Shown one piece after another: positions 3,349 through 63,206 of a stretch of 64,000 nucleotides of DNA (within the stretch, counting starts at the first letter, position 1; each line of letters opens with the position of its first letter). The position numbers and the translations under genes are program-made. Origin of the DNA: Halichondria panicea. Lineage: Eukaryota; Porifera; Demospongiae; Suberitida; Halichondriidae. Location of the stretch: assembly GCF_963675165.1 (NCBI RefSeq), contig NC_087385.1, positions 4,030,501 through 4,094,500 of the forward strand. Direction: 5' to 3'. The notes under the pieces are model-generated. The model was not told the DNA's origin, ran no database searches, and was given only the letters and a program-made list of their open reading frames with translations.

Positions 3349-5691
3349 ATGAAGTTTTCACTGTTCTGCTGTTCCCAACTAACAAGACGTGTCAAAGCCA
3401 GTCTCGATTTATTTACATTACAATATATGCATACAACTTCACTGGAATGTGCTGGGCACAACAAATGGTCAAAGATAAAGCGAAAGAAAGCAGTTGCAGA
3501 CATGGAACGAAGTCAATACACTCATAAATACGTCCAGAAAATAATATCCGCCATTAAAACAGGAGGAAGTACTGATCCAGACAAAAACTTGAAACTTGGG
3601 AGTGTTGTTCAGCAGGCAAAATCTGCCGGTGTTCCAAAGGCGAATATTGATAGTGCAATGAAGCGAGCAGTAAATAAGATGGGTAGTGGATCAGCAGAGG
3701 CTATTTTACTGAATGGAAGGGGGTCCAGTGGCTATCTCCTGTTGATTGAAGCAGTGACAGATAATATCAAAAGAACACGACCCCAATTGAAGAGCCTCTT
3801 GGAAAAGAATGGGTGAGCAATTTATAACAGTTGTCTGGTTCTCCCAGCATCATTTTGTCTGGATATGGAAACCTAGTAGATCTGTCACGATACCCGTAAA
3901 ATAAGATCCCCTGGAACAAATTTTACAGCAAAATATGCACCCCCTCAGCAAAATGTGGACCCCCTCATTAAAACACTGTCTAACATCTTATTTAGCTTCT
4001 ATAATTAGCTAGTATCCTGCACACTTCAAGTTCTCTGTAGTACTGGAGTTTGCAGAATCTTTGCAACACATGAATAAAAGTGTTAAGCACTGTGGTTCCT
4101 TATATGGGAAATGCTCACACATTTAAGTAGTAAAACAGACCACAGTATGTACACAAAATCCATATAAGGAACGCGTAACGCTCTACGCTTTTACTGGTGT
4201 GTTGCAAAGATTCTGCAAACTCCAGTATATTAGCAACTACCGAATTATTATAATATTTTCCGGGTGAAAAACCTTTGCGAATGAGCCAAATCAGCAGAAA
4301 ATTTGACCCTTTGCAATCTAACTATTGCGTTCTGGCAAGGATCGCGTGTATTTACTAGTAATAATTTAGGATTTTATTGTTGCAAATTGATCAACCATCG
4401 CAAAGCTCGCAAAACATTAGTAGTACGGTATATAGTGTGATCCTGCAATGGCAGTGCTGCATGCATGAGCCCCTGGCCCTATATAGATCTAGTAGTGTCA
4501 TATCCCAACTCCAGGAAGCTATGGAAGAAACCAACCTGTCCAGAAGACCCTATTCTGGACTTGGCTACCAGTTCTTGTATCCAGTATGGTGTACCTACCC
4601 AGGGCTTAGTCTAGAGCTGCCAGAATGAAAGTTAAAATGAAGATGTGTTTTTTGAAAAGAAAAGAACAATAAGATGACGGTTGCATGTGACATCCATAAA
4701 CGGTACCACCTCTCCGTCAATGGTAAATATTTCCTCAGGTGTCAAAGGTTCTATATGAAATATTTACCATCGACAGAGAAGTGGTACTGTTTATGATCTA
4801 CAACTTCACCCACGGCTTGCCAGAGTCATCTATCGGAAGAGAAGAGAACAAACACTGTATACAGGTTTGAGCAAACAAACAGGGCACCATCTTCTCTGCC
4901 TAGAAAGTAAAAAGATGGAATCAATTCCACTGAATTAATGTTGATAACAAGAAGGCTATATAATTATACTGCAGCAAACAGTTTTTTATGACTGTCATGC
5001 ACTCGCCAAATAATTACTGTGCTAAGTGCAAGAGATGGTCCCATGTACATGTACAGATTTACCACAACTATTAATGTGATGCTGCTTTACACTATATCAC
5101 TTGCTGCTTTAAATATGGATTTTGTGTGTTCCGGGAGTCCAAATTTGGTGTGACATATCTATATAGTATTAATTGCCGGGATAACATTAATTTTAATGAC
5201 TGTATATTTCTCTAACACTTTGCAGTGCTGTTCTTAGTGATCCGGGCTCAGCTACCTTTAACTTCGAGCATAAAGCTCTTGTCCAAGTACCAATCTCTAT
5301 CTTTCCTTCATTGACAGACCCTCTTGAGCTTGCCATTGAGATAGGGGCTGAAGATGTAGACATAGTCAACAGGGATGAAGCAAGCAATTCATCAGAAGAT
5401 GAAACAAACAATAAGAGTGAAAGAACCGCAGATTACAACTCAATTTCATCAAACTCTAGTTCAGATTATCAGTTTAAATGTGACATCACTGATTTGCGTC
5501 AGGTTTTGAAGTCACTCCGAGAGAAAGGAGTAAATGAATTGACAACCAGCTTCGAGTATCTACCCAAGATATTAGTGGAATTGTCAGATGAAAAATATGA
5601 GCAAGCGAATCAGCTGGTGGATGTTGTTAGTGAACATGAAGATGTTGTTGAGGTTTATAGCAACTTTGCATTGGCTGAACAGACCAGTTAA
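3349..5691 (+). CDS. TACO1: Mitochondrial translational activator of COX1, YebC/PmpR family
   Basis: Two exons, 3349-3812 and 5226-5691, joined through a GG|T codon, giving 309 residues (human TACO1 is close to this size). The ATG at 3349 starts a basic, hydrophobic leader that fits a mitochondrial presequence. It is followed by the YebC hallmark AGHNKWSKIKRKKAVAD and then RAVNKM and LLIEAVTDNIKRTRP. The second exon carries the C-terminal YebC domains (LVQVPISIF, EIGAEDVD, FEYLPK) with a Ser/Asn/Glu-rich insertion. TACO1 supports translation of the mitochondrial COX1 mRNA. The intron of 1.4 kb holds two hairpin repeats. Confidence 0.93.
4041..4227. repeat. Inverted-repeat MITE in TACO1 intron
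   Basis: A segment starting TACTGGAGTTTGCAGAATCT is repeated in opposite orientation at the right end (ending AGATTCTGCAAACTCCAGTA). The arms are about 69 bases with a short centre, and TA flanks both sides. It looks like a small non-autonomous DNA transposon. No coding potential. Confidence 0.7.
4695..4795. repeat. Hairpin repeat in TACO1 intron
   Basis: Left arm CATAAACGGTACCACCTCT pairs with right arm AGAAGTGGTACTGTTTATG, and the complementarity continues inward through TGGTAAATATTT. About 40-base arms with a short loop; probably a foldback or MITE remnant. Confidence 0.65.
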
Positions 5692-5960
5692 TTATCACTT
5701 ACTGTTGTCATAAATTAATTATACTTGCAATGTTTTGTGTGATTTGAACGTATGAGACTACATATAATTTATTGGTGAATATATATTTTTATAGCCACTA
5801 GAAGAATATATATGTACATATACTACATAATTGTAAGAACTGCACGATTGTTACAGCTGTTGTGTACTATTATGTGCACAATTTCTCTGCATGTTCAACG
5901 TTAGGTTGCAATGTGAACAACTAATTAAGTGGTTTCCCCTTGTAATTGTGTACGGTTGCA

Positions 5961-5966
5961 AATAAA
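5961..5966 (+). terminator. Polyadenylation signal of TACO1
   Basis: A canonical AATAAA lies 270 bp after the TACO1 stop codon, in the tail-to-tail interval between TACO1 and the kinase gene. Nothing else is recognised between 5692 and 6311. Confidence 0.6.
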
Positions 5967-6311
5967 GCTTCATTCTCGTTAATATACATGTATCGTAAGT
6001 TCAAAATTAATTGAAATACATGCACAAGGCAAAACAAACAAACTTAAAAATAACAAAACTATAGTTTATATCTCATTATGCTACAATTCTACAAAACTAT
6101 ACACTTTCTTACAAATACCAAAACATGAACACTATTGCAGAAGTTGGTACACAAGAAAGTAAAATTGCTGACTACTACACACAGTGCAGTTGAATGAACT
6201 ATAATTACTGAGTGCAATGTCAATACACTCAATAAGCACACAATAGATTACTGAATTACTGAGCAGTGTACAAAGAATTACTAAAGTGTCACAGGAGAGG
6301 GGAAATTTGAT

Positions 6312-14193
<7,882 letters not shown>

Positions 14194-24149: not shown

Positions 24150-24503
24150 CGATAGTAGCAGAGCACATCCTGGTAAAGATCGACAATTGAAGTTTGTTAG
24201 TCTCGCGGGGGGGGGGGTTGTGCGCGCATGCAAAGTTGTGCTATATGTATAATTATCAGTTGTACTCTTCGACAACAATGCAGACTGAGAGGCAGACTGA
24301 GAGGCAGGAATCTTGCCGAGATGCACCCATTGCAAAAAGAGGTATAGTTTGCTAGCTTTGCTTGTGTGTATAATAATTTTAGACAATCATCTATTGTAGT
24401 GTAGGCAGCACAGCCACTGCACCATGTGTAATTGTTGAACTAGCTACATACTTCGAACCAAGTTAGTACTGCATGTGATGAATTTACTAAGGAAATTTTA
24501 GTA

Positions 24504-25248
24504 GCGCCACATGTTTATTAGACTTGCAAGCCGTCACTGTTGCACGGCGAACAGTATACAGTAGATCTAGACTCTCGCTATTCCGGCTCTCTGAAGTACG
24601 GCCACCTCGATATACCGGCCATTTGGCTTGGCACGGAATGCTAGCTATATGTTTACTGTACAAAACTCACCCTGAAGTACGGCCACTCGCTATTCCGTTT
24701 ATCGGCCAGTGCTGGCTGTCCCAAACAAGGTTTTCAATGTAATTTTATACGTGTATTACGGCCGGATATGACGTTTTGGGTGTGGTTTAGCAAATAAAAT
24801 TGGATTACACTTAAATAGAGAACAGCATTATCCTACATTATCCTCGAGACAAGAACCGCAAAAGTAGTCATTAGATTCGAGGTAAGGTCGTTTTTAAGCC
24901 GCGGCTATTTCCTGAGCTGCAGCCACCTCGCTATTCCGGCCAAGCTGCATGGTCCCAAGGGTGACCGGATTAACGAGAGTCTACTGTAGACTGGTCAAAC
25001 TCCGCATAGAGACTCGTGTTGAACAGTCAGTATAATTATCAGATAAGATTCTAAGTGGCTGTGGTTTTCAGTATGATACCTAGTGCTACGTCACTATCAA
25101 TGATCTTGTGATAACCGCATGCAGTCTAACCACTTGAGTTGCCACAAATATCGTGGCAAACGTTGCACGAGTCTCTCACGGGAGTTGACCAGTCTACTGT
25201 TCACCGTGCAACAGTGACGGCTTGCGAGTCTACATGTTTATTGGCCGC
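24504..25248. repeat. Element with ~50-bp terminal inverted repeats enclosing a pogo-like MITE
   Basis: The left arm (24504-24557) contains GCAAGCCGTCACTGTTGCAC and the right arm (25195-25248) contains its reverse complement. The arms differ at a few positions. The second element at 24559-24986 lies directly inside. The whole block sits between the divergent PHF10 and vWA-peptidase genes. Confidence 0.65.
24559..24986. repeat. pogo/Tigger-like MITE with TA target duplication
   Basis: The ends are CAGTAGA...GACTCTCGCTATTCCGG on the left and CCGGATTAACGAGAGTCTACTG on the right in split form, flanked by TA on both sides (24557-24558, 24987-24988). A related element is at 38924-39302. No transposase inside. 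Confidence 0.65.
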
Positions 25249-25495
25249 ACTAGAATAATTAGTGGAATTTGGTGTAATTATAGGGAGGTCAGGCCGCCAT
25301 CACTAATTACTAACTATGATGTAAAATGGAAGCATTCCAAATACTGACACTACTGCCTGGAAACCAGACAGATCATTTTTTCTCTATAATAGTTGTACAG
25401 TCATGCATGCAAAGCTTCTGTCTGAATCATAACTATAGATCTATAGCAAAACTCGATTATTATTTTTTTATTATACAGATGCACTGAGTCAATCC

Positions 25496-27582
25496 ATGGT
25501 TGGGATACTAGTGGATGTATCAGGATCCATGGAAAGAGCATTTGATCTCGATAGCTCAAAAGATGCCACTGTGGAGCGTGTTCATACTATTTTAACAACC
25601 GTTCTCAGGATTGTGAAAGCAGAATTGAACCATCATAGCAACCGATCAGATGAAATTTTTGTAACTGCGTTTGGGCTAGACATAAAAGTTAATACCTGTG
25701 ATCTGGTTGCTGTGTTAGACCTTATTGCTGGTCCAGAACATCTGCGCAGATTAGAACCGCACGATGCATTAGTTAAACTAGCCAAAAATCATGGAGCTGC
25801 ACATGCTGAGCGATGGATTCGAGAGCACCTGAACAAAGAGGAAGCTAGAGATCTCTTTAGGGTTTTATGTTTTGATGAGGATCTTGTACCAGAATTGATA
25901 CAGAAAATACCCCCAGGCAGATCTAGATCAAGCTCTATCTTGTCTGTACTAAGGAATAATTTACCAGGAGGTAGATATGTCGAAGGGTTTGTTGTACATC
26001 AAACAGAAGCTTACTGCTATGCCCAAGACCTTGTTAAAAGCAAAGATAAGGTCATCCTACGAAAGCTTGAGTCGATAGAGCATTCTTTCCCCAAATCTGT
26101 TTTGTATGTTTCCCAGCTCTTGGATGACCTAAACTTGATAGACGACGACTCTTCTTGTGCTTCCAGCTCTCTTCATTCTCGAATTAAAGAGCTCATTGAT
26201 CCCATTAGGCCTTACATATTTGGTGGCACTCCAATGTGTAAGGCAATCCGCAGAGCTTCTCAAGTGTTTCGTTTTTCTGGAGCTAGGTCCAAAGTGTTGC
26301 TCATTCTTTCTGATGGTGAATCAGCTGATGGAAATCCGCGATTCATTGCTAGAGATCTGAAAGATTCCATTATAGTGTCTTGTTATCTCACAGACGCACA
26401 TATTTCCGATCCAAGATGCCTGATGGACAAGGCCTCTCCTGATTGGCCAAAGAGTGATGGCCGACAGACACTTTTTGACATCAGCTCCACTGTGAAAAAT
26501 GTTGATCCTCCAGTTTCATTTCTTATTGATTTTGGCTGGAAATTGCCACCCTCGGGAGAAAGCCGCTTGTTTGTTCAGGCAAACAGCTTGGATGTGGTAG
26601 ATGAGCTGTGCAAAATTGTCGTCGCTGAGCTGACAAACCCTTGTGATGCTCTCGTGGATCTCTTGCAAAAGGTGCCACTGAGTCTGTACATTAACCAAGA
26701 AAATGCGAGTTTCAAACCTGAGAAGCAAGTCGGCGGCACATGCTATGCACATGCTGTTGCTACTGTGTTTCACCTTGCCATGCATCGGATTGTTGGTCGA
26801 GACGGAGGGCACCCAGAGTTCAAGCAAATCAAGGACCGATTAATTGCGGACTACGGCAAAGACGGGGCTTTTGCAGAAAGAGTTCTTGAACGAGTTGGTC
26901 CTGAGTATCGCTTGCACTTCAACAAAGTCGATGAGATTCGTGCCCGACAAGCACTCAACCACAGGAGGCCGCTTGTTGCAATGTTTTTCTTGAGAAAGAA
27001 CCAATGGGACAAGTTTCGTGAGTTCTACGAGAAAACGCCAAAGGAGGTCCTGCAGAGGGATAATCTTGGCGGTGAGTAATCTCAATTAATTATATACCAA
27101 GTATGACTTTTTTGTGCATGCATGTGCAATTCTAATTCTGTATCTATATTTCTACAGATGGGTCTACTGTGGCAGGCGTGGGTGACGGTGGTCATGCTGT
27201 GGTTTTGATCCGGTGTAGCCCTGATTATCTTCTATTCATGAACTCCTGGGGCCTAACATGGGCTGATGGTGGATTCTTCAGAGTAAAAGATGCCTCTGTG
27301 CTAGACAGAATGACCTTTTATGATGTCTACTGGACGCTGAACGATCTCAAACAGAGCGAAAAGGATGCCTATCAAATTGAGGCGATCAAAAAAGCAAAAA
27401 ACCTGACAGCTACATTTCCCAGTATTAACAGCTTGCTATTCGAATGTCCTAAGTGCCGAATAACGTCGAGTGTGAAAGAATTCGAAGGTGATTTGATCGA
27501 GGCGAATTGCCCGAAGTGTGAGCATAAATTCAGGCCTACAAACGATGACCTTGTGAAGAGTCTGTACCTTAGAAATGTTTAA
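25496..27582 (+). CDS. von Willebrand A domain fused to papain-like (C1) cysteine peptidase and zinc ribbon
   Basis: Two exons, 25496-27071 and 27158-27582, give 666 residues. The N-terminal vWA domain has a full metal site: DVSGSM (Asp7, Ser9, Ser11), Thr245 in FGGTPM and Asp273 in LSDGES, with a long insertion between the first strand and the rest. The peptidase part has the oxyanion Gln and nucleophile in QVGGTCYAHA (Cys416), His538 in DGGHAVVL and Asn554 in NSWGLTW. The Cys-His spacing of 122 and the His-Asn spacing of 16 are close to papain (134 and 16). The C-terminus holds two CPKC knuckles (622-625, 643-646), a likely zinc ribbon. There is no signal peptide, and no propeptide is evident, so it appears cytosolic. 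The start is uncertain: an acceptor at 25477-25478 leaves an open frame of six codons upstream, so a 5' exon may exist. The function is unknown to me; a regulated intracellular protease is inferred. Confidence 0.85.
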
Positions 27583-41771: not shown

Positions 41772-43341
41772 CTAATAATTATAATCGAGTCCAACTCGGT
41801 AGTTCTTGCCGTAATTATTGTCCCACCAACTCTTTCCATCTTCAGACTCTAAACACAAGGCAAAGTCAGTGCAGCCAGGGTTAAAGTACGGTAGGTCAAA
41901 CGCGTATCTATTCATTTGCTCTCCTTTGTAATTAGTCCTAATCAAGGTGGCTGAAACGTCTGTGCATGATTTCCATTCATCAAGTGTGTAAAACACAAAC
42001 AACTTTTTTGCTGATACAGAGTCAGACACCCGTACGAATCCCGTGAACTCATTTCCACATCCATACAAGCAGTATTCTAAAGATATCTTTTTTCTGTGAA
42101 CACGGGATGCAAAGCAACCTTCACGAAAGAGTGGATGGTCAAACTGGAAGATAGTAGGACTTGAGAGTTTGGTATCGATAACGATGTACAGAGGTTCTCG
42201 TTTGATAACACCCCCTTGGAATCTGTCCATATGATCCGCCAGGTCCTACATAAATGAGAGACACACTACTCAATACTTTTTCTATACCATCTTTTGTAAC
42301 TTACTGGATCATTCTGAATGCATAACATGTCTGAAACAGAGAGTTTCAATGGTTCGTCTTGCTCAGTGTCGCAAGGCAAGGAAGCATCGACAATCTCACA
42401 ATGATCAGGCAAAGGCCGGCTGGTAACCTCCTGATTCTCTATGAACTTCTCGAGTTTTTCCAAGAGCTCAGCGGAAGGTATTCTAGGGATCACAACAGGT
42501 TCACTTGCTACACTCAGCATAACAGTGTTTTCATTGGTCTGAGATTCCGCAGGGAAAATTGCAATAAAGGGAAAGTACAAATAACATCCAGGTCTCACCT
42601 GTAGATATTCTTGATCTACTGTATTTGTGTGAGTGGAGGCATCAGGAGAGCATCTATCTGGCCCAGTGGTCCTTGCTGAACTAACAGTGGCTGCCACAGT
42701 GGTTGAGGTCTCACCATGAGCTGGCCCGATACTGGTCCTTGCTGAGGTAAAATGACTGGTGGTAGCAATCGCCGCTATTATAATAGTAGTGGGAGTGGGA
42801 GTTTCACTATCAGCTGGTCCGATACTGGTCCCTGCTGAGGTGGAGTGACTGGTGGTAGCAACTGCAGTGGTGGTCTCACTATCAACTGGCCCGATACTGG
42901 TCCCTGCTGAGGTGGAGTGACTGGTGGTAGCAACTGCAGTGGTGGTCTCACTATCAACTGGCCCGATACTGGTCCTTGTTGAGGTAGAGTAATTGGTGGC
43001 AGCAACCACAGTGATGGGAGTGGAGGTCTCATTGATTGGCCTCTCAGCTCGATTTTTTGCAGACCTTGACATTACTTTTTGCTTGAGCTTTTCCTACAAT
43101 TTCACAAGGATTAAAAATGTTACAGCTATAGGTCTAACACTGTAAATTATAATCTCCCGATACTGAAATGGCTAGTATATCGGTGTCAATGAATGATTAC
43201 CTTCATTTTGGAATGTTTAGGATTTGTATCAGTTTGATTGTCATCAATGGGGATGACTTGAGTTGAGCAACCTCTACAGAAGATGATCTTGGTAACAGTC
43301 TTGATGACCTTCTTGAACCTTCGACGTATTCTCTTCCCCAT
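41772..43341 (-). CDS. CBM21 glycogen-targeting protein, PPP1R3-like, copy 1 (intact)
   Basis: Four exons: 43341-43201, 43093-42599, 42538-42305, 42245-41772; 447 residues, all junctions in phase 0. The C-terminal domain is CBM21: ISLEYCLYGCGNEFTGFVRV, FVFYTLDEWKS, YAFDLPY, FALCLESEDGKSWWDNN and GKNYRVG. WDNN-x-GKNY is the family signature. PPP1R3 proteins bring protein phosphatase 1 to glycogen. The N-terminus is strongly basic (MGKRIRRRFKKVIKTVTK). Exon 2 carries a Thr/Ser-rich repeat of about 24 residues (TTSHSTSAGTSIGPVDSE), four units here. No clear RVxF phosphatase-docking motif is seen, so PP1 binding is unproven. The start at 43341 was preferred over 43446 because the upstream extension is out of frame in copy 2. 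It is convergent with the LAMP-like gene. Confidence 0.82.
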
Positions 43342-45167: not shown

Positions 45168-46705
45168 TTAAGAGTTCTGTATAACATGTAGTTTGTGGCT
45201 ATCGAGTCCAACTCGGTAGTTCTTGCCGGAATTATTGTCCCACCAACTCTTTCTATCTTCAGACTCCAAACACAAGGCGAATTCAGTGCAGCCAGGGTTA
45301 AAGTACGGTAGGTCAAACGCGTATCTATTCGTTTGCTCTCCTTTGTAATTAGTTCTAATCAAGGTGGCTGAAACGTCTGCGCATGATTTCCATTCATCAA
45401 GTGTGTAAAACACAAAAAACCTTTTTGCTGGTACAGAGTCAGACACCCGTACGAATCCCGTGAACTCATTTCCACATCCATACAAGCAGTATTCTAGAGA
45501 TATCTTTTTTTCTGTGAACGTGGGATGCAAAGCAACCTTCACGAAAGAGTGGATGATCAAACTGGAAGATAGTAGGACTTGAGAGTTTGGTATCGATAAC
45601 GATGTACAGAGGTTCTCGTTTGGTAACACCCCCTTGGAATCTGTCCATATGATCCGCCAGGTCCTACATAAATGAGAGACACACTACTCAATACTTTTTC
45701 TATACCATCTTTTGTAACTTACTGGATCATTTTGAATGCATAACATGTCTGAAACGGAGAGTTTCAATGGTTCGTCTTGCTCGGTGTTGCAAGGCAAGGA
45801 AGTATCGACAATCTCACAATGATCAGGCAAAGGCCGGCTGGTAACCTCTTGATTCTCTATGAACTTCTCGAGTTTTTCCAAGAGCTCAGCAGAAGGTATT
45901 CTAGGGATCACAACAGGTTCACTTGCTACACTCAGCATAACAGTGTCTTCATTGGTCTGAGATTCCGCAGGGAAAATTGCAATAAAGGGAAGGTTAAAGC
46001 AATAATCCAGGTCTTACTTGTAGATATTCTTGATCTACTGTATTTGTGTGAGTGGAGGCATCAGGAGAGCATCTATCTGGTCCAGTGGTCCTTGCTGAAC
46101 TAACAGTGGCTGCCACAGTGGTTGAAGTCTCACCATGAGCTGGCCCGATACTGGTCCTTGCTGAGGTAAAATGACTGGTGGTAGCAATCGCCGCTATTAT
46201 AATAGTGGTGGGAGTGGGAGTTTCACTGTCAGCTGGTCCGATACTGGTCCCTGCTGAGGTGGAGTGACTGGTTGTAGCAACTGCAGTGGTGGTCTCACTA
46301 TCAACTGGCCCGATACTGGTCCCTGTTGAGGTAGAGTAATTGGTGGCAGCAACCACAGTGATGGGAGTGGAGGTCTCATTGATTGGCCTCTCAGCTCGAT
46401 TTTTTGCAGACCTTGACATTACTTTTTGCTTGAGCTTTTCCTACAATTTCACAAGGATTAAAAATGTTACAGCTAAACACTATAAATTATAATCTCCTGA
46501 TACTGTATACAGAAATGGCTAGTATATCTACTTATTTTATATAATGGTGTCAATGAATGATCACCTTCATTTTGGAATGTTTAGGATTTGTATCAGTTTG
46601 ATTGTCATCAATGGGGATGACTTGAGTTGAGCAACCTCTACAGAAGATGATCTTGGTAACAGTCTTGATGACCTTCTTGAACCTTCGACGTATTCTCTTC
46701 CCCAT
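45168..46705 (-). pseudogene. PPP1R3-like CBM21 gene, copy 2, with a one-base frameshift
   Basis: Exons match copy 1: 46705-46565, 46440-46018, 45956-45723 and 45663-45168. Exon 2 is 72 bp shorter, one Thr/Ser repeat unit fewer. In the last exon a T run of seven (45505-45511) replaces the six T of copy 1, so the frame closes at 45466 just before the CBM21 core. The CBM21 sequence downstream is otherwise intact to the stop at 45168 (C-terminus VGLDSHKLHVIQNS differs from copy 1). Either a recent pseudogene or a homopolymer sequencing error. Confidence 0.8.
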
Positions 46706-55369: not shown

Positions 55370-56366
55370 CTCCTCCTAAAAGTGGGCTGCGCATGAAGCT
55401 AAAGAAGCTTATAGCAACTAAACAGGTCAGTAAAAAGTCATTTACCGGTATGAAAACGTAGTCTCACCATTTTAATAATTAATAGCACTCTCTATTTTCT
55501 TCTTCTCTATTGCACAGGAGCAAACACCGCAGTCACTACCTGACATATATACACAAGTAAGTTTAACTGAGTTCATTTTAATTACATACAGCTCTGAATA
55601 TTTTACAGGGAATTGCTGGTGATGAGTCTGCGATGAGTGACCAGATAAGTGCAAGCTTCAGCATGGTTACCGACTACGCATACGACTGGCATAGTGATGA
55701 AAGTTTGGTCATGGACCACAGTGACACCCTTACTGCTGGACTTGATCTGTCGGCAACTGATAGTGTGACACCACACGACGATGGTGATGGTGATGTTGTG
55801 CAGAAATTAGTAGCTCGTGAGCCGGCAATTATTAAAACGAGTTGCAGTCCACTTCCAAACCCTTGTCCTGTCCCAGAAGTGTTCAGTCTAGTAAGAGGGT
55901 AATGCTGGCCCTGAGTAGCAACAAGCTTCAGGGGAATACGAAACTGTCATTGATTCGGGAGGCGAGTCAGTTCTTCTACGGTTTATGCCCCAGACCAACT
56001 GCAGCAGAATATGACATCATGGCCAAGACTCTAAGTGGCAAGTACCCGAATCTCCGCAACAAAATACTCGTAAACGGATGTGACAATGTGAGTTTGAAAT
56101 GATATTTTGTATAAAAATGCATGTGGTGTTATATACTGATTATACAGATACCCTTATATTCTACACACAACATGCAGTACTCTCTTCGACAGCAGTTGAG
56201 TATGGCATATCGGAACAAACGAAGGACTTCGACACCAATTCCGAAGAGTAGCAGGTCAACGTTAGTTGTATTATCTGCAGCAAAACCAGCAGCTAAGGTG
56301 GTCAACGGTGATCCTCCAGTTGTTAGAGATGAAGCTGCCTACGCCAGATTTTCGATTCAGTCCTGA
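55370..56366 (+). pseudogene. SAMD3-like transposon protein, probably broken
   Basis: Small exons can be read: around 55370-55425 (DPPPKSGLRMKLKKLIATKQ), 55518-55556 (EQTPQSLPDIYTQ), then a longer stretch from 55609 (MSDQISASFSMVTDYAY...PNPCPVPEVFSLVRG). The frame then changes near 55890 to ALSSNKLQGNTKLSLIREASQFF and PTAAEYDIMAKTLSGKYP, and continues after a possible intron with LRQQLSMAYRNKRRTS. This order (acidic region, PVPxFS, LIREA, PTxxEY...KYPxL, basic RNKRR) resembles proteins annotated as SAMD3-like in many animals with active transposons. The frame change suggests decay, but an unrecognised intron is possible. Confidence 0.45.
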
Positions 56367-56370
56367 GCAC

Positions 56371-57285
56371 CACAAACTAGCAATGGCTCAAGAATTTGTT
56401 CTGACCAAAGAATGTGAATGTTTTATAAACAGTTCGACAGTAACCATCGACACAAGCACAAATTCTGATATTACTATCATTTCAGACTCAAGTGATTCAT
56501 CCGAGTCAACTATCTGGAAGAAAATTGATCATTTTCATCTCTACCACCAAGACCACAGTATTCTGCTAAGCCGTAATGCCTGGTTGAACGACAATCATGT
56601 AAATTGTGCCCAATACTTGCTAAAAAAGCAATTCACTCATCTGTATGGCCTACGGTGCTCTGTGTTACAACAGTCGCAATATATCAGTCCTCTCTCACAG
56701 GAGTCTCTACAAATTTTGCACGTTTCTAGCAACCATTGGATAGCTCTGTCTACACTTCAGTGCAGTACCACAAATTTGATTCCCACTGCATGTCTATACG
56801 ACTCGTTGTATAGGGGAATAAGCATGGACACTCAAACACTTTTGGCCAAGTTTCTAGCAAATGGAACAAGAGACTCAGAGCAACAACTTTCCGTCGCTGT
56901 AGCAAATGTGGCACAACAATCAGGCGCTTCAGACTGTGGATTGTTTGCTATCGCTTTCGTTACGCATTTAGCACATAGCCTAAACCCCTGCTACTGCAAT
57001 TTCAAACAAAATGCAATGAGAGAGCATTTCTTGAAATGCATTGACCAAGCAACCATGACACCCTTTCCGACTAACTCACAAAGAACAGCCAGATTAGCGA
57101 TAACAAAGGAAATAGTAGAGATTCAATTGTATTGCTACTGTAGACTGCCTGATAATGGCTCAAAAATGGTTGAGTGTGAGAGCAGCGGGTGTAAACTGGG
57201 AGGCTGGTTTCACCTCAAGTGTGTCAATGCTTTCGAAGTGAAGAAAAACAATAAATGGATCTGTAACAATTGTAGAGGAGTATAA
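56371..57285 (+). CDS. Ulp1/C48-type cysteine peptidase with C-terminal PHD finger (transposon gene)
   Basis: An intronless frame of 304 residues from the ATG at 56371 (an upstream ATG at 56266 overlaps the preceding gene). The peptidase core has NAWLNDNHVNCAQYLLKKQF, VSSNHWIAL (catalytic His), YDSLY (Asp) and GASDCGLFAIAF (Gln region and Cys), the C48 order His-Asp-Cys. The C-terminus is a PHD-like zinc finger (YCYCRLPDNGSKMVECES...GWFHLKCV...WICNNC). Ulp1-PHD proteins occur as accessory genes of several eukaryotic DNA transposons; cellular SUMO protease function is unlikely here. Confidence 0.7.
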   Translation, partial: HKLAMAQEFVLTKECECFINSSTVTIDTSTNSDITIISDSSDSSESTIWKKIDHFHLYHQDHSILLSRNAWLNDNHVNCAQYLLKKQFTHLYGLRCSVLQQSQYISPLSQESLQILHVSSNHWIALSTLQCSTTNLIPTACLYDSLYRGISMDTQTLLAKFLANGTRDSEQQLSVAVANVAQQSGASDCGLFAIAFVTHLAHSLNPCYCNFKQNAMREHFLKCIDQATMTPFPTNSQRTARLAITKEIVEIQLYCYCRLPDNGSKMVECESSGCKLGGWFHLKCVNAFEVKKNNKWICNNCRGV

Positions 57286-58133: not shown

Positions 58134-60365
58134 GTGGGGAGCATGATCTCAACAGCTCAATATGGATTTTTAAAGAATCACTCCTGTCTCCAACAACTGC
58201 TTACATTTCTAGATAATGTTATCAATTCCCTCACCTGCAATGAGCAAATAGACACTGTTTATCTGGACTTCCGAAAAGCATTCGATAAAGTTCCCCATAC
58301 CGAACTATTACACAAACTGAAAAGCATTGGAATTTCAGGAAGCCTCCTAAAATGGTTTAAAACATACTTATCTAATCGTCAGCAATTAGTATCCATCAAC
58401 GGCTCCCAGTCTTCAGTTGTACCTGTTTCATCAGGTGTTCCTCAAGGTAGCACACTTGGCCCTCTTCTGTTTCTAGTTTATATCAATGACCTTCTTCAGT
58501 GTGTACCCAACGGTAAAGTATATCTGTTTGCTGATGACACAAAATGCTCTCATTCAATCTCATCTACTTCAGACTGTGATCAATTACAAGCCAATTTAAC
58601 AAGCCTCTCAGATTGGAGTACTAAATGGAGTTTACATTTCAATGCCTCCAAGTGTATTATAATGCAGTTCCATCGTGCTAATCACTCCGTTTTAGACTTT
58701 AACTACAAGCTAGGCGACCAGACTATTTCATCTAAAACTACCCTTAACCCTTCCTTACCATTCGTGAAAGTCTGGAACAGGAGCGTCTTGGTCGATCAAT
58801 TAGTGTGGATCCGGCCTCACCACGCCTCCATGTCATTCTATTAGTCTAGATCCGGCTAGCAATTCTAGCTGGGACTCCCAGTTCTAGCTCCTTTTGTTTA
58901 GCGTGTCAGAGACTGGGAGAAGATGATTGGCACTCCCTGGCTCCTTTGGATGTACAGCTGTCCAGATCCCTAGAACATACCCTACATTCTGACGAGTTAT
59001 CAGTGCATAGGGTGCTTACTAGATTCTTGCCAGCCAGTACAGTTCAAGCTACACACAGCACCGCTCAACTATTCTCTACCCCATTATCTAGCTAAATCTG
59101 GTCCAACTAGACAGCAGACACAGCTAGTTAATTCAGTAAAGCCAGGGGTAGCTGTACTTCTACGGTTGTTCAGTACCCACGGTAACAATTCCACTGGGCT
59201 GGGCTAACTAGTTGAGCCACGCTTCCCAATTCTCAAGGCTAGGTACATGTCTCTGTCTAGCTGCTTCTTCAGCTTCTTGCTCAGTTTTATGGCTTAGAGA
59301 AAGGCCAGCTACTCAGGGGGAAGAGTCCAGATGAAAGTCTGGCAGCCAGGTGACGTCCAAACGGTCAGTTATTCCTTCCACCAACTTTTTAATCTAGTCT
59401 AGTCCTGCTTGCACTGCTACTCTTCCTACTACTACTGCTGCTACTCTTCCTAGCTAGTTAAAGGTTTCTTTTTTTTTTATATAACTACATATGCACAAAG
59501 AGACATCAAAGCTTACATCAAAGGACACAGATTTTTAGCCTACTTGACTGATAAGGCCGTTACCTAGACTACAGTTTGTTTGTCAGGGAGGAGCTCACAT
59601 ACCACTTCATCTAATTCATCATAACGATTCGTTACCGTTGTTGTAATTTCTACAACAGATTGCCAAGGAAAGAGTTAAAGACCTAGGACTAATTCTTAAC
59701 AACAACCTTAACTGGACAAATCACTATGAGCACATCTGCTCAGTGGCATATCATATCTTGGGTTTGCTAAAGCGTACATTTTCATTAACCTCAACAGTTT
59801 CAGTGAAAAAGAAATTATTTATATCCCTCGTTCGATCACAATTATCGTATTGTTCTCAGATATGGCGACCTGCTCTGATCAAAGACATCCGCAAACTAGA
59901 AACAGTACAGAGAAGGGCAACCAAGTTTATTATAGGAAACTCAATGGACTACAGAAATCGCCTGATAACACTTGAAATAATGCCTTTAATGTATTATCTT
60001 GAAATGGAGACATCATGTTTCTAGTTAATTCGCTAAAAAAACCCTCTGTGCGATTCAACATTCGTAGTTATATAAATTTTCAAGATAACACCAATACCCG
60101 TTCGTCCAGCAAGTTAACTTTAAAGCACGTCCTCTCTTCCTCACACCTACAAAGTCACTTCTATTTTAACCGCTTACCAAAACTATGGAACAAGCTACCT
60201 CCTATTGACTTAACTCTATCATCAGAATGTATAAAACACGTCATATTTAAATATCTCTGGTCTCATTTCATAAAAAACTTCACATCTGACAATCCTTGCA
60301 CCTACCATTTTTCTTGCCCTTGTAATAAATGTTCAGCCATGCCATCATCATTCAGGCCCACTTAA
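58134..60365 (+). pseudogene. 5'-truncated, interrupted LINE (L2/CR1-like) reverse transcriptase
   Basis: The sequence starts inside the reverse transcriptase (QYGFLKNHS), then motif A (YLDFRKAFDKVPH), motif B (SSGVPQGSTLGPLLF) and motif C (LFADDTK). It is split at 58744 by a TTAA-flanked insert and resumes at 59675 in frame (DLGLILNNNLNW, FISLVRSQLSYCSQIWRPA, LETVQRRATKFI). A second frameshift lies near 60010; the C-terminal end follows in another frame (FYFNRLPKLWNKLPPIDL, CPCNKC) to the stop at 60363. The endonuclease and 5' part are missing, so it is dead. Confidence 0.85.
58748..59674. mobile_element. TTAA-flanked 927-bp insert inside the LINE
   Basis: TTAA is present at 58744-58747 and 59675-59678. 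The ends are imperfect inverted repeats: CCCTTCCTTACCA on the left, TGCCAAGGAAAGAG on the right. Removing the insert and one TTAA leaves the LINE reading frame continuous across the site. No coding frame inside. TTAA targets are typical of piggyBac and Kolobok groups. Confidence 0.8.
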
Positions 60366-62138: not shown

Positions 62139-63206
62139 CTATGTGCTGTATCCACTGTGATTTATCCAACCATTGCACTTTGAACTTGTCACACTGTTTA
62201 GACCTTCCTGTATGATATGCACAGGGCTAGGGACTGCTTGTATTAAATCTTCATGTTCTTTCAAATAGTACTTTAAGTAACTAAACAGCTCCTCAATGGG
62301 GTTGTAGTCAGGGCTGTATGGTGGTAGGTACACAAGAAGAACGCCAAAGCTATCAAATAGGTCCTTGACTGCCTGTATGTGGTGGATTGAGCAGTTATCC
62401 ATAATCACTATAGAGTGTCTGTCAGGGAATGGTTGAGTGACTGGTATTAAGCTTCCTCTCACAAAGTCTACAAATTTTTCACCATTGTTTGAACCAGAAG
62501 TTAGTTCATAAGCCTCAACACCCTCAGATGACATAGCAACCACTGCAGATATCCTTTTCCCACGTGTAAAAAGTTGTGTACAAACAGCTGGTTGCCCTCT
62601 TATAGCATACCCAAACTTGCGCAGCTGATCTCTTCTGTCTGTACCAGTTTCATCCACCCATACAAAAAAATCTCGAGGATACTGCAACATATTAGCCATG
62701 AATGCTGCTCTATGTTCAAGTGATCTTTGAAGTGCAGCTTTGGTCAGCTTCTTCCTGGTAATCCCATTTCGATGGATTACCTTGCACACCGTTGAAGTAG
62801 ACACTCTTACTCCCGTTACTTCAAAAATTTTTCCACAGACTTCGCGAAGGTATATTGCTGGATTCTCACAAATCAATCCAATGATATAAATCTCATGTAA
62901 ATTATCTAGCTTCCTCAACTCATATCTTTCAGCTCTCTTCAAGGGAGCAACATCACCAGTTGATTCATACATTTGAAACAATCTGTGAGCTGTACCAACT
63001 GCAATCTGAAGCCTGTAGGCAATCTCTTTATAAGTGAGACCCATTCCTATTCTCTGCCAAACAACCCTCCAGCCAATGTCAGTGGAGTAAGCAGAAGTCC
63101 TTGAAGGCTCGGCAGAAGTCATATTATCTGTAGTCGTATCTGTAGCAAACTTTTTTTGAATCAACGAAAAACGGAAACGGAAACGATCACGAATATTCGA
63201 AGTCAA
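62139..63206 (-). CDS. Tc1/mariner-IS630-type DDE transposase
   Basis: An intact frame of 355 residues. The N-terminal helix-turn-helix includes GLTYKEIAYRLQIAVGTAHRLF and a second DNA-binding segment (VRVSTSTVCKVIHRNGITRKK). The DDE catalytic core shows Asp in FFVWVDETGTDRRD, Asp in HSIVIMDNCSIHH and Glu in PPYSPDYNPIEELFSYLK, the DDE_3 pattern. Length is normal for the family and no stop or frameshift is seen, so it could still be active. Upstream residues MTSNIRDRFRF to TDNM may be untranslated; MTSAEPS is an alternative start. Confidence 0.88.
   Translation of the reverse strand: MTSNIRDRFRFRFSLIQKKFATDTTTDNMTSAEPSRTSAYSTDIGWRVVWQRIGMGLTYKEIAYRLQIAVGTAHRLFQMYESTGDVAPLKRAERYELRKLDNLHEIYIIGLICENPAIYLREVCGKIFEVTGVRVSTSTVCKVIHRNGITRKKLTKAALQRSLEHRAAFMANMLQYPRDFFVWVDETGTDRRDQLRKFGYAIRGQPAVCTQLFTRGKRISAVVAMSSEGVEAYELTSGSNNGEKFVDFVRGSLIPVTQPFPDRHSIVIMDNCSIHHIQAVKDLFDSFGVLLVYLPPYSPDYNPIEELFSYLKYYLKEHEDLIQAVPSPVHIIQEGLNSVTSSKCNGWINHSGYST

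Follow-up and report, generated by a model that had tools for sequence, protein, structure and literature searches.

Peptidases of the papain family (C1) are mostly secreted or lysosomal and are held inactive by a propeptide. In this family the oxyanion glutamine usually lies six residues before the catalytic cysteine, a spacing more relevant to activity than to family membership, and the catalytic histidine and asparagine of papain are 16 residues apart. Among vWA proteins, copines and RGLG are of the intracellular type. In the bacterial vWA-MoxR conflict systems, effector domains are found C-terminal to the vWA domain in the same polypeptide, as set out in excerpts of the report (PMC8195603). 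The main texts of two reports on such systems mention papain once each, in one case for a papain-fold transglutaminase-like domain and in the other for a papain-like peptidoglycan peptidase, with no link to vWA in the passages concerned (PMC8195603, PMC7159879). The gene described here lies in a window of 64,000 nucleotides from the sponge Halichondria panicea (contig NC_087385.1) and is considered a well-founded gene prediction in which known domains are combined in an unusual way, namely a split vWA domain, a papain-type part and a putative C-terminal zinc ribbon. Among the matches listed in a search of the open-licence literature, no title or abstract opening names a vWA-C1 protein. With moderate confidence, we infer that the product is a cytosolic papain-type (C1) cysteine protease that would be docked to its partners by the split vWA domain.

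Splicing of positions 25496-27071 to 27158-27582 gave a translation of 666 residues followed by a TAA stop, in which Asp7, Ser9, Ser11, Thr245, Asp273, Cys416, His538 and Asn554, the eight residues named in the preliminary description, were all present at the positions given there. Exon 2 corresponds to a single 527-codon frame in the ORF list; the vWA domain and Cys416 thus share one open exon, which excludes a two-gene reading for that pair. His538 and Asn554 are encoded by exon 3, past an 86-base GT-AG intron that had already been proposed and that is matched in place and length by an intron of the paralogue L017. The start assigned earlier, at 25496, is probably internal: the upstream frame stays open as far as an acceptor ending at 25478, and a short exon of 64 bases, predicted to be the true first one and in phase 1 at its GT donor, fits this acceptor in frame, giving a protein of 693 residues that begins MQTERQTERQ (Table 1). 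An alternative in-frame ATG is located 11 codons upstream of the predicted exon 1 start. The paralogue can be read likewise, its first exon being short (MCQNPPQE) and its first intron in phase 1; since the first exons of the two genes are dissimilar, the support comes from phase and layout, not from sequence.

Table 1. Features of the vWA-C1 gene (positions in the window) and of its relatives in the genome.
Feature	Location	Strand	Evidence or remark
Predicted first coding exon, MQTERQTERQESCRDAPIAKR + 1 base	24278..24341	+	donor GTATAG at 24342; phase fits acceptor
Predicted intron 1	24342..25478	+	GT...AG, phase 1
Exon 2: split vWA, linker, first part of C1 with Cys416	25479..27071	+	open frame; paralogue
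First part of vWA (residues 1-67) with metal-site motif DVSGSM	25496..25696	+	Pfam VWA_2 E=5e-4, residues 4-60, below cut-off
vWA insert, residues 68-224	25697..26167	+	excision test and controls; modelled as helical, at low confidence only
vWA second part, residues 225-345, Thr245 and Asp273	26168..26530	+	Pfam VWA E=9e-4, residues 228-292, below cut-off
C1 domain first part, Gln411 and Cys416	26672..27071	+	motif QVGGTCYAHA; MAFFT alignment; outside significant profile matches
Intron 2, 86 bases	27072..27157	+	GT...AG; identical place and length in L017
Exon 3: C1 second part (His538, Asn554, NSWG), CPKC...CPKC putative zinc ribbon, TAA	27158..27582	+	
Paralogue L017	contig C1 17626411-17628755; exons L017:4412-4436, 4539-6245, 6332-6756		intact
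Truncated tail copies	L018:6827-7030, L019:3098-3301, L020:3039-3242		5'-truncated, 82-88% identity

Several other open reading frames were noted in the window. Two very similar ones at 41772-42230 and 45168-45629 (minus strand), as judged by eye, suggest a local duplication; the former, which was the one scanned, matched the starch/glycogen-binding module CBM_21 (E=4.7e-16). The frame at 56266-57285 on the plus strand encodes a Ulp1-type peptidase (C48, E=8.5e-7) and, behind it, a region resembling a PHD finger (E=2.4e-4, below the cut-off). Mobile-element sequences are represented by a long DDE_3 transposase frame at 62139-63206 (minus strand, E=5.9e-29), presumably Tc1/mariner-like, and by a LINE-type reverse-transcriptase-like frame at 58134-58844 (plus strand), recognised by eye only.

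The genome searched for relatives of the gene comprises 131 Mb in 39 contigs. With the whole protein as query (E<=0.001), eight places were found, two in the window gene, three in L017 and three in tail-only pieces (L018-L020) that match just the last 69 residues; with the C1 part only, even at E<=10, all five places fell in the window gene and L017. The two genes are 74% identical across 662 aligned codons. L017 keeps the layout, the place of the second intron, the metal site, the Cys/His/Asn residues, the NSWG motif and both zinc CxxC pairs, and Pfam recovered in it the same three domain families as in the window gene. Comparison of the pair by NG86 gave dN 0.141, dS 0.304 and dN/dS 0.46 (bootstrap 95% range 0.36-0.63; 0 of 300 replicates at or above 1). 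Higher ratios were obtained by YN00, 0.59 overall and 0.89 for the vWA insert, so that by YN00 the constraint on the insert is weak. The paralogue pair is under purifying selection. It is very improbable that two neighbouring genes, or else a decayed copy, have been taken as one, given the open exon shared by the vWA domain and Cys416, the conservation of intron position and phase in L017 and a dN/dS below 1. The single fused protein of the preliminary description is accordingly borne out, and a paralogue has the same layout; its claim of a new system went too far, what was found being two intact genes in one genome.

The vWA assignment was evaluated against the Pfam gathering cut-offs (VWA 23.8 bits, VWA_2 27 bits, Peptidase_C1 20.7 bits), below which all matches of the whole uncut protein remained. 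The two vWA matches on the whole protein correspond to opposite ends of a single domain. When residues 68-224 were excised, VWA reached 32.5 bits (E=1.3e-7, profile positions 4-131 of 174) and VWA_2 reached 32.0 bits (positions 3-107 of 107). Four control cuts of equal size gave VWA scores of 24.0 and 24.1 bits, narrowly above the cut-off, in the two cases that retain both metal-site segments, and no match at E<=0.01 in the two that remove the Thr segment. Since neighbouring control cuts also reach 24 bits, the correct excision adds about 8 bits. At the level of profiles, the vWA domain is thereby shown to be split by an insert of about 157 residues (68-224) that separates its first part from the metal-site Thr; the insert alone matched no Pfam family at E<=5. 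A vWA domain with a complete metal site had been claimed before, and the five residues of the DxSxS, T, D pattern are indeed present and are the same in L017, but the domain is not continuous.

Other searches with the vWA domain gave lower scores. The joined vWA of L017 scored 22.8 bits (18.3 bits uncut), below the cut-off of 23.8. Against the PDB, the joined domain of the window protein found a weak vWA chain, 4fx5, at E=0.18, ranked behind unrelated proteins, and against PHROGs it had no match at E<=0.1. The PADLOC model for TerY, a bacterial vWA protein, weakly matched residues 239-290 (E=1.8e-5, library of 5027 models), and NCBIfam returned neither a vWA nor a peptidase match on the protein at E<=1. 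With its metal site intact and the insert of about 157 residues, the N-terminal vWA domain could serve as a docking module for a partner or substrate; a linker would then carry the papain-fold enzyme with Cys416, His538 and Asn554.

In the C1 part, Pfam Peptidase_C1 matched residues 479-570 of the whole protein with 18.4 bits, below 20.7; the C1 part alone passed this cut-off narrowly (21.5 bits), with its C-terminal half the only region aligned. A profile built from the two paralogues matched in the PDB 3ioq (E=2.5e-5), which we take to be CMS1MS2, a papain-family plant protease, and papain itself (1bp4, E=1.3e-4), again over the C-terminal His/Asn part. Profile-profile comparison with a small C1 set (four of its members, L001, L002, L003 and L005, in wrong frames) likewise gave a local match in the His/Asn part only, with a global probability of 34, and in PHROGs the C1 part found a peptidase family at E=0.015. 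A papain-type nature of the C-terminal His/Asn half is thus supported by profiles. Cys416 lies outside every significant profile match (Pfam, PDB); in MAFFT it was aligned to the catalytic Cys residues that L004, L008 and L021 carry, and the half of the domain that carries it is assigned from its motif and this weak alignment. Cys416, His538 and Asn554 occur in the order of the papain family and are kept in L017, so the earlier statement that all catalytic residues are present is right by motif, although profiles match the His/Asn half alone. The His-Asn spacing is 16, together with an NSWG motif, as against 20 in four distinct cathepsin-type frames of the genome. Single-sequence structure predictions, in which the parts encoded by exon 2 and exon 3 were modelled separately, had mean pLDDT values of 37 and 45, respectively; at these values the predictions are unusable and confirm no fold.

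The presumed oxyanion Gln precedes the Cys by five residues in both copies; the distance is six in the four cathepsin-type frames and, by eye, in L021. This altered spacing would agree with a pseudo-protease scaffold, in which the papain fold is inactive through a changed oxyanion loop and the vWA domain and zinc ribbon work as an adaptor. Two further observations point the same way. In L017 the 12-residue repeat IVGRDDxLDxER occurs four times in tandem and in frame (L017:5843-5986), from 16 residues past its Cys (a single comparable stretch, IVGRDGGHPEF, is present in the window gene), and by NG86 the tightest constraint is on the last 65 aligned residues, the zinc ribbon, at 0.12 compared with 0.46 for the C1 part. 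Such a scaffold is nevertheless unlikely, as both copies retain Cys, His, Asn and the NSWG motif. Two other C1-like sequences of the genome are probably inactive. L006 (contig C9 2570213-2570782), in which Ser replaces the catalytic Cys and His is missing from its usual position (RSVLVVGYG), is probably an inactive cathepsin relative; L007 (contig C17 4223908-4224465) has the Cys region QGQCGTTAAFA and one TGA within its match.

No signal peptide was recognised by eye, the start being without a hydrophobic stretch even when the predicted extra exon is included, and the same applies to the start of L017; on this point the preliminary description holds. No propeptide family was found among the Pfam matches of the whole protein. 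That the vWA domain replaces the propeptide, as had been proposed, is a description of its position only. The C1 part has two Cys, compared with 7, 8, 7 and 9 in the four distinct cathepsin-type frames and 12 in L008, and so few suit a cytosolic protein. The predicted enzyme is therefore likely intracellular, and a cytosolic C1 enzyme behind a split vWA domain would need other means of control and aiming. Provided that it is active, it would bring a member of the papain type into the set of cytosolic proteases with a potential part in signalling.

The C-terminal CPKC...CPKC stretch comprises two CxxC pairs whose four Cys are kept in L017; the listed Pfam zinc-ribbon matches were below the cut-off, and the isolated tail gave an IBR-like match (E=5e-4) of 20.3 bits, where the cut-off is 27. 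In a protease docked by its vWA domain, this ribbon may supply a second binding surface. Its IBR-like match also fits a deconjugating or ubiquitin-linked enzyme, in which the vWA domain and the zinc ribbon would bind ubiquitin-type modifiers and the C1 part would cut them. Intracellular vWA proteins do exist in the ubiquitin system, reportedly in studies of Rpn10 and of a Dictyostelium vWFA/VIT protein. This function is improbable, considering that the Pfam matches include no deubiquitinase family and that the IBR match stays below its cut-off.

The three tail copies are each situated downstream of kelch-like and kinase-like frames, for which Pfam on L019 alone gave E-values of 2.1e-26 (kelch) and 1.7e-37 (kinase); a preceding frame of L019, death-like by eye, had no Pfam match at E<=0.01. 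A zinc-ribbon tail common to kinase/kelch proteins was rejected, since the copies begin inside the tail sequence, beyond the kelch stop codon. In L018 and L019, which were inspected, no clear splice acceptor into the tail copy was seen, although an AG a few codons upstream might allow a join, and the copy in L020 has lost one zinc Cys. The three copies are treated as relics. These truncated copies, without a clear join to the kinase and kelch frames, argue against the vWA-gated protease suggested in the first description, in which a metal or ligand at the vWA domain would activate the enzyme as a sensor-effector in immunity or death. The domain layout itself is in its favour, as is the placement of effectors C-terminal to vWA in bacterial conflict systems, so far as the excerpted report covers it (PMC8195603); on balance such gating is distinctly unlikely. 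A bolder version is a long shot: a lineage-specific family of cytosolic papain-type proteases whose vWA domain would be split by a new helical recognition insert and whose cleavage would be switched on when a partner binds the metal site, making it a protease-based animal sensor unrelated to caspases.

Genome-wide, 29 VWA_2 places and 77 C1 places were listed, and a single vWA place has C1 places less than 30 kb away, on contig C7 at a distance of 8.6-9.4 kb. This neighbourhood was rejected as a second fusion and is read as separate genes, because other frames lie in between and the frame just before the vWA place (L032:637-1245) has a signal-like start by eye. The window gene is absent from both lists, so equally diverged genes would be missed.

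Outside this genome, pattern searches suited to close relatives only gave no confirmed match, neither in IMG/VR, where the C1-ribbon part had 11 pattern matches and the two-sequence full alignment 32, nor in GTDB genomes, where the C1 alignment had 51. A motif search with the vWA insert had no match, and phage and plasmid records searched with the C1 part gave none at E<=1. The DNA pattern GTCYA[H/N]AxAT retrieved one phage-type C1 protein, L021, from an IMG/VR contig, and a Niabella reading frame, L022, that was dismissed as a relative because it looks unrelated by eye. The architecture thus appears unusual, with no relative found in viral, prokaryotic, phage and plasmid collections; these hold no animal proteomes, and their null results say little on other animals.

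The predicted protein shares with the papain family (PF00112) the Cys/His/Asn motifs, the NSWG motif and the profile match of the C-terminal half, and differs from it in its few Cys, in a Gln-Cys distance shorter by one residue and in the fused vWA domain and putative zinc ribbon. Secreted and lysosomal C1A cathepsins have a signal peptide, a propeptide and disulfide Cys, whereas the window protein has no signal by eye, no propeptide match and two Cys in its C1 part. The phage-type L021 (Peptidase_C1 E=7.9e-17) has GTCYANA...GGHAVV...NSWG motifs akin to those of the window C1 part; unlike the window protein, it is only 259 residues long and matches neither vWA nor zinc ribbon. With intracellular vWA proteins the DxSxS...T...D metal site is held in common, TerY of PADLOC being weakly matched, but these proteins differ from the window protein, whose vWA domain is interrupted by about 157 residues and has a predicted protease fused behind it. 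In the vWA-MoxR systems, as excerpts of the two reports describe them (PMC8195603, PMC7159879), the vWA domain stands ahead of a possible effector in one polypeptide, and the same arrangement is found in the window protein.
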